Of a stretch of 29,514 nucleotides of DNA, positions 27,610 to 29,190 are shown piece after piece. The translations under genes and the position numbers were made by a program. Each line of letters opens with the position of its first letter. The first letter of the stretch is position 1. The notes below the pieces were generated by a model. The model searched no databases. It was given only the letters and a program-made list of their open reading frames with translations, and was not told the origin of the DNA. Origin of the DNA: a virus; the IMG/VR virus record IMGVR_UViG_3300045431_000248, positions 1-29,514 of that record; one strand, given 5' to 3'.

Positions 27610-27778
27610 AAAAATAGTTTCTAACTTTCAATTTTTCTTCTCTTAATTTCAAATCTGCATGATCTACTGAACGAGAAAGATATTCATGAATTTTGCAATT
27701 GGCGAAATAGTATTTTGCGAAAATAAGTCTCACATAAATTCCCAAAAGAATATTTTTTATAAAACTCTTTTCAATCAC
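27602..27778 (-). CDS. 58-residue mini-protein coupled to hsp20
   Basis: GTG at 27778 overlapping the TGA of the hsp20 gene (GTGA), the usual sign of translational coupling. The 58 residues start with a hydrophobic helix (FIKNILLGIYVRLIFAKYYF, 6-25) that may be membrane-inserting or part of an amphipathic helix, then become charged (LSRSVDHADLKLREEKLKVR). The stop overlaps the next mini-gene. No family recognised. Confidence 0.55.
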   Translation of the reverse strand: MIEKSFIKNILLGIYVRLIFAKYYFANCKIHEYLSRSVDHADLKLREEKLKVRNYFYE

Positions 27779-28266
27779 AGAGTTGGTTCTTCAACTAAGA
27801 GTTCTTTTTTATATTTTTTGGAAGGCGTTTCTGTGTCTTTGACTTCGATTTTCTTTGACTTCTTGTGTTCAGGAATGATTCGCTCAAGCGCAATTTTCAA
27901 CATACCATTTATAAGCGACGCATCTTGAATTTCAATTTTGTCATCAAGCGCAAATGCGCGAGTAAATGCACGATTTGCAATGCCCTTAAACAAGAAGTTA
28001 TCGACATCATCTCTTGTATTTCCGGAAACAATTAACTTATTGTCCTCTAGAGTAATGTCGATTTCTTGTTTTGCAAACCCCGCAACTGCCAATTCAATCA
28101 CATATGTATTTTCATCAGTTTTACGAATGTTGTAAGGTGGATAATTAGGAATATCCTTTGTCATATCATCATGCATCTTATGCAAGCGATTGAATGTATC
28201 GTCAAATCCGACAAAAAATTTATCGAAATTTTTGAATACTGCTGGTACTTGTGGAATAAATGTCAT
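27775..28266 (-). CDS. Small heat-shock protein, Hsp20/IbpA-like
   Basis: 163 residues; ATG at 28266 with AGGAGAG nine bases upstream. The alpha-crystallin domain runs from about residue 40 to 135: YNIRKTDENTYVIELAVAGFAKQEIDITLEDNKLIVSG, then IANRAFTRAFALDDKIEIQDASLINGMLKIALERIIP, the A-x-x-x-G-x-L motif of the family being present as ASLINGMLKI. The basic, acidic tail ends EEPTL. Small Hsp proteins hold unfolded clients; in T4-like marine phages they are common and may help capsid or enzyme folding. A late-type promoter is located about 170 bases upstream, with a structured leader in between. Confidence 0.92.
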   Translation of the reverse strand: MTFIPQVPAVFKNFDKFFVGFDDTFNRLHKMHDDMTKDIPNYPPYNIRKTDENTYVIELAVAGFAKQEIDITLEDNKLIVSGNTRDDVDNFLFKGIANRAFTRAFALDDKIEIQDASLINGMLKIALERIIPEHKKSKKIEVKDTETPSKKYKKELLVEEPTL

Positions 28267-28267
28267 A

Positions 28268-28400
28268 ATAGTTTCTCTCCTATTTAAGCGAGTTAATAAA
28301 ATTTGCCACCCCAAAGGCGTAGCATTAGTCCTGCTTACTGATTACAGGGACACCATATCGTTGTGCCAGCATTATACGCTACTAAGGCAGTAGAATCTTT
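28268..28400 (-). other. Structured 5' leader of hsp20, no gene
   Basis: Non-coding stretch between the late promoter and the hsp20 ATG. On the minus strand it is fairly GC-rich and contains several possible stems: GCGTA (28375-28379) with TACGC (28316-28320), CCTG with CAGG around 28330-28348, and a GGCAC/GTGTCC partial pair between. A short open frame here is broken by a stop and has no start. A structured leader that controls hsp20 translation is possible; no known riboswitch matches by eye. Confidence 0.5.
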
Positions 28401-28424
28401 AAGTTATTTTCTAGAAAATAACTT
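28401..28424. repeat. Perfect 24-base palindrome
   Basis: Both strands read AAGTTATTTTCT followed by its reverse complement, giving a 12-base-pair perfect inverted repeat with a CTAG centre. It begins five bases after the late promoter box at 28430-28437 (minus strand), right where the transcript is expected to start. Confidence 0.85.
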
Positions 28425-28429
28425 TTACT

Positions 28430-28437
28430 TATTTATA
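28430..28437 (-). promoter_or_regulatory. T4 late-type promoter TATAAATA for hsp20
   Basis: Exact TATAAATA on the minus strand. The transcript should begin near 28424, the first base of the 24-base palindrome, giving an mRNA that starts with a stable hairpin followed by a 150-base leader. A weak sigma70-like -35 (TTTAAA, 18 bases upstream of TATAAA) overlaps, so early use is not excluded. Confidence 0.68.
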
Positions 28438-28440
28438 CGC

Positions 28441-28745
28441 AACTGTATGTTAAAGTTTAAAATATTTAGAAAAAGAGGTTTCAGTGACCAATATACATTT
28501 GAGAGTAAGTACAGCGGAGTTTGCAGACACGACTAGGGCTAGCGTACTTGTGACACTATAAATGGTGTGCTAATGACACCCTAACTCCAGAAATTGCCCT
28601 ATCTCTTCTCTGCTATCGCTTTTTTCGCCACCGAGGTGAGACGTTTGGATCAGGACAGTCTAGGCATCCCTCAGTTGGAGCAACTCTGTGATCAGTTTTT
28701 CCGTCCCCTTACCAAATTGTTCGCCTTATATCAATATTATTGAAG
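28441..28745. other. GC-rich non-coding island between dps and hsp20
   Basis: About 300 bases with no convincing gene. By direct count 88 of 180 bases in 28501-28680 are G or C, against roughly one third elsewhere in the window. Inverted repeats include AGTTG/CAACT (28673-28685, three-base loop) flanked by ACAG/CTGT and GATC/GATC, followed by TTTTT on the plus strand; GGTGT/ACACC (28564-28580); GGAGTT/AACTCC (28516-28588); AAGTAC/GTACTT (28508-28549); and CACC/GGTG at 28629-28638. It could be a structured RNA (either strand), an origin-like element, or a remnant of transferred DNA. Confidence 0.6.
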
Positions 28746-28749
28746 TGTG

Positions 28750-29190
28750 TCAAATAATTTTAAGAGTTGATTTTAGCATCCACGCATGCTTAAAAAATGC
28801 ACTTTGTCTTTCTGCCATAAGATTGCTATAACCATGATTGTTGTTTTGTTCAGCTAAATTATATGTATTTAGAATGCTAGACTGAACAATCTCAATATCA
28901 TTGTATAAACGGCGAATCATTTCCAGTGCCGGAGGAACATTTAATTCATCTTGAATCTGAGTCAATTCTGAAAATCGAGAAAAACTTGCTGGAGCATAAG
29001 AATCCATCGATCTTATTTCTTCAGCAAGAGTATCAATTACATTGCCGACTTCATTGTAAATTTTTCCAAAAAGTTTATGATATTGACTAAAATCTGGACC
29101 AGTCACATTCCAGTGATAATTTTGAGCTTTTAAATAAAAGGCATAATGATTGGCCAAAACAATTTTGGCGGCTCGAATAAGTTCTTCCAT
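28750..29190 (-). CDS. Dps-like ferritin-family protein
   Basis: 146 residues, no long N-terminal DNA-binding tail. The Dps signature is clear: NYHWNVTGPDFSQYHKLFGKIYNEVGNVIDTLAEEIRSMDSYAPAS (24-69), with ferroxidase-site residues H26, H38, D53 and E57. The acidic residue usually found four positions after the second histidine is glycine here (G42), so iron oxidation may be weakened. Dps proteins store iron and shield DNA from oxidative damage. The ATG overlaps the regA stop (TAATG), with AAGGAAG upstream, so the two are translated together. Known from T4-like marine phages; the role in infection is not established. Confidence 0.88.
   Translation of the reverse strand: MEELIRAAKIVLANHYAFYLKAQNYHWNVTGPDFSQYHKLFGKIYNEVGNVIDTLAEEIRSMDSYAPASFSRFSELTQIQDELNVPPALEMIRRLYNDIEIVQSSILNTYNLAEQNNNHGYSNLMAERQSAFFKHAWMLKSTLKII

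Follow-up and report, generated by a model that had tools for sequence, protein, structure and literature searches.

The interval between the dps-like and hsp20 genes of a T4-like phage consists of two parts, a GC-rich island and an adjoining structured leader of hsp20. The island is probably lineage-specific DNA with no demonstrable function, and the leader probably joins a T4-type late promoter to a 5′ untranslated region (5′UTR) that includes a ROSE-type RNA thermometer. This assignment is supported directly by the conserved anatomy of the leader, the covariation in its hairpin I and in additional hairpins, its linkage to hsp20 and the predicted masking of the Shine-Dalgarno sequence.

Genomic setting and anatomy of the hsp20 leader

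The window, by which we mean the entire analysed virus contig of 29.5 kb, belongs to a T4-like phage with a DNA polymerase 54-55% identical to its Synechococcus phage counterparts. On the minus strand, hsp20 (27775-28266, with the ATG at 28266) encodes an IbpA-type small heat-shock protein, as judged from Pfam and PHROG matches, and its upstream neighbour is a gene for a dps-like ferritin (28750-29190, minus strand). A second contig of 10 kb, IMGVR_UViG_3300045421_000387 (loci L003 and L079), is taken to represent the same virus because the 2394 bases that it shares with the right end of the window are identical; it continues past the window end and extends the virus rightwards of dps.

Comparison of the intergenic region with other phages by blastn revealed that positions 28268-28394, outside the island, are 80-85% identical at the nucleotide level in more than 30 relatives, whereas the neighbouring polymerase and dps regions are only near 70% identical. 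Thus, a conserved phage RNA, which the sequence-only reading had sought within the island, is indeed present in the intergenic region but lies next to the island, on the minus strand at 28266-28437. This leader of about 160 nt extends from a T4-type late promoter (TATAAATA, 28430-28437, minus strand) to the hsp20 start codon. It contains hairpin I (28305-28323, minus strand), the first stem of the ROSE-like element, of the form GCUAC-G-CC-UUUG-GG-GUGGC with a bulged G and strong covariation across phages, and hairpin II (28275-28292, minus strand), the presumed thermosensor, in which UCGCU is imperfectly paired with the Shine-Dalgarno sequence AGGAG (28281-28277).

The exact TAAATA core of the late promoter is found in 92 of 160 phage leaders, whereas 5% of background blocks contain it; from its end to the hairpin I stem downstream, the median distance is 5 nt. 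With a promoter-to-start spacing of 6 nt borrowed from T4, transcription is predicted to start at the base of hairpin I, yielding a median predicted leader of 52 nt; these starts are predicted rather than mapped. Both hairpins are located downstream of the predicted late start.

The two-hairpin ROSE layout, the UYGCU helix and the IbpA-type gene together suggest that translation of Hsp20 would therefore be held in the cold and released on warming. In the proposed mechanism, the late promoter would produce an mRNA with a structured 5′UTR ending in the thermometer (28437-28266, minus strand). Hairpin I would frame or stabilise the leader, and hairpin II would pair the Shine-Dalgarno sequence imperfectly with UCGCU, leaving the conserved G unpaired. 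At low temperature, ribosomes would be kept off the late mRNA, and upon warming hairpin II would open, allowing the phage to make its small heat-shock chaperone. We infer transcription from both promoters of the interval, the late one and an early one described below, as well as how the leader responds to temperature and what Hsp20 does during infection.

A motif predicted to mask the Shine-Dalgarno sequence precedes hsp20 across T4-like phages

Protein-guided scans of viral contigs and phage records yielded 161 distinct hsp20 leaders, which were picked by gene position and the presence of a Shine-Dalgarno sequence, independently of the motif. UYGCU is located immediately 5′ of the Shine-Dalgarno sequence in 140 of the 161. 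When a stronger Shine-Dalgarno sequence was required, UYGCU was found to face it in 138 of 156 hsp20 leaders but in only 3 of 127 control genes from the same contigs, and the Shine-Dalgarno sequences of the hsp20 leaders were predicted to be less accessible than those of the controls (p about 1e-9). Several of the leaders without UYGCU have a small ORF inserted between the leader and hsp20, and many carry instead the variant AGACGCUU-AAGGAGGUCU, which is also able to pair around the Shine-Dalgarno sequence (second-hairpin variants in L174, L176, L183, L193, L195, L200, L203, L210 and L212). This variant may likewise mask the Shine-Dalgarno sequence and represent a second thermometer design.

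The last 60 nt of the leader have counterparts in the Prochlorococcus phage P-SSM2, the Synechococcus phages S-RIM2, S-RIM44 and ACG-2014f, and the methylophage Melnitz. The element is thus found ahead of hsp20 in phages that infect Synechococcus, Prochlorococcus and Methylophilales, and in weaker form in Pelagibacter phages: in HTVC008M, a phage of Pelagibacter, UUGCU is kept before the Shine-Dalgarno sequence and the model match is weak. A covariance model built from 38 leaders, with the window and its clade left out, recovered the leader of the window at E = 5e-7, far ahead of the next match, and also detected hsp20 leaders in the majority of 38 additional loci. When the same model was run on whole phage genomes, the top match in each annotated record was at or just before hsp20.

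To survey cellular genomes, we searched 84,980 species genomes with a strict sequence pattern and obtained 13 matches. Seven of these precede hsp20-type genes and have high model scores; judging from the likeness of their products to the phage proteins, they probably represent phage contigs within assembled bins. Another of the 13, from a betaproteobacterial lake bin (L307, 1673-1748), lies ahead of a small heat-shock gene; this ROSE-like leader has the same hairpin layout and is possibly a cellular cousin of the phage element. The pattern match in L066 was discarded, its context being unrelated.

Covariation and thermodynamics of the two hairpins

Hairpin I has the general form N5-G-CC-loop-GG-N5′ with a bulged G. 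Averaged over 155 leaders, 4.39 of its 5 outer pairs are formed, compared to 2.77 ± 0.07 after permutation, in which the 3′ sides were swapped between sequences, and all four Watson-Crick types are seen at 4 of the 5 positions. In a structure-blind alignment, 96.1% of the pair cells form, with 41 double-change cells versus 11.9 in shuffled data, and shifting the partners by one column abolishes the signal. RNAalifold returned no pairs from a 134-row MAFFT alignment, an outcome that we attribute to differences in loop length, which misalign the stems; we relied instead on anchored pairing tests that covered every leader, and on a subset with loops of equal length.

Hairpin II varies little and has little covariation support of its own because it is constrained by the Shine-Dalgarno sequence. 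In ViennaRNA melting calculations, the opening of the Shine-Dalgarno sequence with temperature is shallow and, for the leader of the window itself, nearly flat; this small effect was not counted as proof. Furthermore, in the predicted minimum-energy fold of a longer fragment of the window, the region is paired differently.

Likeness to ROSE-like thermometers

The short ROSE-like leaders of Pseudomonas ibpA are 61-62 nt long and fold into two hairpins; their published traits are the two hairpins, a helix between U(U/C)GCU and the Shine-Dalgarno sequence with an unpaired G, and an IbpA-type gene downstream (PMC3669281). The phage leader resembles them (PMC3669281) in fitting two hairpins into about 60 nt (about 52 nt as predicted, close to the 61-62 nt of Pseudomonas), in having U(U/C)GCU imperfectly paired with the Shine-Dalgarno sequence in hairpin II, and a downstream IbpA-type small heat-shock gene. 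It differs in being phage-borne, in standing behind a T4 late promoter where the bacterial leaders have a sigma32 promoter, in a hairpin I sequence that varies freely with compensation, in the three to four hairpins added upstream in the clade of the window, and in a temperature response that is here a predicted one.

The features by which ROSE-like elements are recognised (PMC3669281, PMC11182007) can be followed through the phage leaders. The element occupies the 5′UTR of a small heat-shock gene, a location that is typical of the class but not exclusive to it. U(U/C)GCU, in the window UCGCU, is paired with the Shine-Dalgarno sequence in the 3′-proximal hairpin, and the predicted folds of the window and of the aligned leaders show an imperfect helix with a bulged or unpaired G. 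The number of hairpins is two in marine phages, within the usual two to four; the clade of the window carries three more covarying hairpins, and with its palindrome the window is slightly above the usual number. The class is further defined by translation that increases with temperature as the last hairpin melts, for which the folding energies of the phage leaders show a weak trend.

The Rfam model ROSE_3 (RF02523) matches this part of the hsp20 leader from end to end in 6 of 20 loci tested, below the cut-off. Its full 69 positions align, with GAUGCC-loop-GGGUC as the first hairpin and ACUCGCU-Shine-Dalgarno as the second; unlike members of that family, however, all phage leaders score below the curated gathering cut-off of 43 bits (19.5 bits for the window and 34.1 bits for the best phage leader). 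By score, the leader thus lies outside Rfam ROSE_3, and it is placed behind a viral late promoter. Matching ROSE-like thermometers in anatomy, it probably, by analogy, also works like them.

A paper from 2024 described three phage RNA thermometers, those of lambda cIII, SPbeta blyA and a sigma70 gene of a gut Caudoviricetes phage, of which the latter two are of the fourU type (PMC11182007). As in these systems, thermosensitive control of translation is proposed here for a phage gene; in contrast, none of the three is at hsp20, whereas the ROSE-type motif recurs across a large group of T4-like phages. We found no report of a thermometer at a phage or cyanophage hsp20 gene, or of a viral one of the ROSE type, in a literature search that left subscription papers and preprints mostly uncovered, so that an earlier description is possible.

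Masking with and without temperature sensing

The observations that speak against a thermometer are the shallow computed melting, the ROSE_3 scores below the cut-off, the scant covariation of hairpin II and the alternative fold of the longer fragment. The leader might instead be an attenuator that masks the Shine-Dalgarno sequence without sensing temperature, setting a low level of Hsp20, answering to a protein or silencing early read-through, as with T4 genes e and soc. T4 late genes with masked Shine-Dalgarno sequences are known, and in e and soc transcription from the late start leaves out one arm of the hairpin at the ribosome-binding site. Besides this precedent and the shallow melting, the attenuator draws support from the early promoter upstream, which could yield read-through transcripts. 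What is shared with e and soc is that a T4-like phage has a masked Shine-Dalgarno sequence close to a TATAAATA late promoter. There, however, the late start drops the hairpin arm, whereas here the predicted late starts do not fall inside a hairpin: both hairpins lie past the late promoter, and the late mRNA would keep them. The UYGCU motif with its unpaired G and the linkage to a small heat-shock gene are, moreover, traits of ROSE thermometers. We consider an attenuator unlikely and favour the ROSE-type thermometer.

An extended leader in the freshwater clade

In the clade of the window, the late promoter is located about 110 nt upstream of hairpin I, and the extra segment forms three more hairpins on the minus strand: CUACU/AGUAG (28379-28393), GGCAC/GUGUC (28349-28367), for which relatives show compensatory changes, and the invariant CCUG/CAGG (28330-28348). 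Taken together with hairpin I, these are 99.7% paired, with compensatory change at six pairs. Just after the late promoter, the window carries a perfect 24-nt palindrome (AAGTTATTTTCTAGAAAATAACTT, 28401-28424, minus strand), which is absent from relatives and takes the place of their conserved 5′-most leader sequence; in the late mRNA, it would be expected to fold into a hairpin close to the 5′ end.

Several freshwater relatives have a small ORF, about 70-75 aa long, between the leader and hsp20, and there the leader heads a two-gene unit. The encoded protein (MLQALNMFIDTFQGAKSQF..., phasin-like by eye) was seen in L125, L132, L134 (1280-1504) and L135 and is not encoded in the window.

A wider proposal, that ROSE thermometers are the inherited control of hsp20 across ocean and lake T4-like phages and that the freshwater three-hairpin domain is a further sensor or stability module, strikes us as rather unlikely as a whole. 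If true, the freshwater leader would be a composite RNA, with a separate conserved three-hairpin domain atop the thermometer.

The GC-rich island occupies an early-gene slot

For the island (28441-28745), we could demonstrate no function, and its DNA is lineage-specific. The sequence-only reading had singled it out as GC-rich, structured and devoid of a plausible gene. The peak in GC content is genuine: G+C is 0.489 over 28501-28680 versus 0.339 in the window, a value reached by 0.3% of 180-nt windows. The label does not hold for the island as a whole, which has a G+C of only 0.413 (top 3% of 305-nt windows). Nor is this composition anomalous for the locus: in every relative measured but one, G+C in the same slot is 40-44%, and raised GC is therefore normal here.

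The claimed stable stems show no extra stability, with z = +0.99 on the plus strand and +0.18 on the minus strand relative to dinucleotide shuffles, and an unusually stable fold was accordingly rejected for either strand. A plus-strand stem followed by TTTTT had also been described; a terminator scan gave no plus-strand stem with a T run and listed just one weak stem, of 5 bp, for the minus strand. A plus-strand terminator was rejected as well.

That the island holds no plausible gene was borne out. The open frame P0001 (28585-28743, plus strand) does exist, but at 52 codons it is shorter than the mean longest frame of shuffled sequences (56), as expected by chance; it matches nothing in Pfam, NCBIfam, PHROG or PDB, and tblastn found no relative except in the same virus. 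No Rfam family, tRNA or tmRNA was matched, a HOTAIRM1_5 match in the Rfam scan being judged a chance one, and no sign of a replication or packaging site was seen.

At the sensitivity of our scans, the island has no DNA or protein relatives in phages, plasmids, the 84,980 genomes or viral contigs. Its only other copy is in the identical overlap with IMGVR_UViG_3300045421_000387, that is, in the same virus. Every relative examined is without the island, leaving no homologous fold to be conserved. Because of this and of the negative database scans, the functional island of the sequence-only reading essentially falls by that reading's own refutation test.

Between dps and the hsp20 promoter, relatives carry a gene for a small secreted Ala/Lys/Pro-rich protein and/or a gene of 75-81 aa whose product begins with MAFVNSSKTQ or similar. 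Both are absent from the window according to nhmmer and tblastn, which also led us to reject a decayed copy of these genes. Directly after dps, a sigma70-type early promoter (TTGACA-17-TATAAG, 28725-28753, minus strand) reads into the island and is kept in at least 12 of the 14 relatives measured. Most simply, the island is a lineage-specific replacement in an early-gene slot, with predicted minus-strand transcription and no evident function.

For foreign DNA, as had been suggested, no matching sequence was found in the collections scanned; the island may still be of foreign or lineage-specific origin, since it occupies the place of one or two small genes kept by relatives. Replacement of these genes by DNA of a host or another phage, with 28585-28743 as the frame of a broken gene, would fit the missing genes and the 49% GC peak. 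With no relative found in the collections scanned and a frame length expected by chance, we regard this origin as possible but doubtful. That the island instead encodes a lineage-specific small RNA transcribed from the early promoter is highly improbable. The promoter reads in on the minus strand and has been kept although the small genes are gone, and no open frame takes their place; the minus-strand fold, however, is average (z +0.18), no relative is available to show conservation and no RNA family is matched. Lineage-specific DNA with no evident function remains our preferred description of the island.

Potential roles of a proposed thermometer at hsp20

Cyanophage myoviruses are abundant in oceans and lakes. 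Their core genes include hsp20, the role of which is unproven, although an aid to capsid maturation has been suggested (PMC3037559). If the thermometer is real, virus development in these waters would have a built-in, protein-free temperature input, with a bearing on infection during warming, and whether phage Hsp20 acts in heat tolerance or in assembling the capsid could then be tested cheaply. The few phage RNA thermometers reported so far would gain a type that is structurally distinct and widely conserved, and its natural variants, which number well over a hundred, could be used to study the ROSE mechanism.

A separate RNA element was encountered in two loci. Strong matches to the Rfam manA RNA were obtained in L115 (P-SSM2; 1906-2103, 181.6 bits) and L217 (2014-2207, 133.1 bits), and in P-SSM2 the match is located between regA and a purL-annotated gene just upstream of hsp20.
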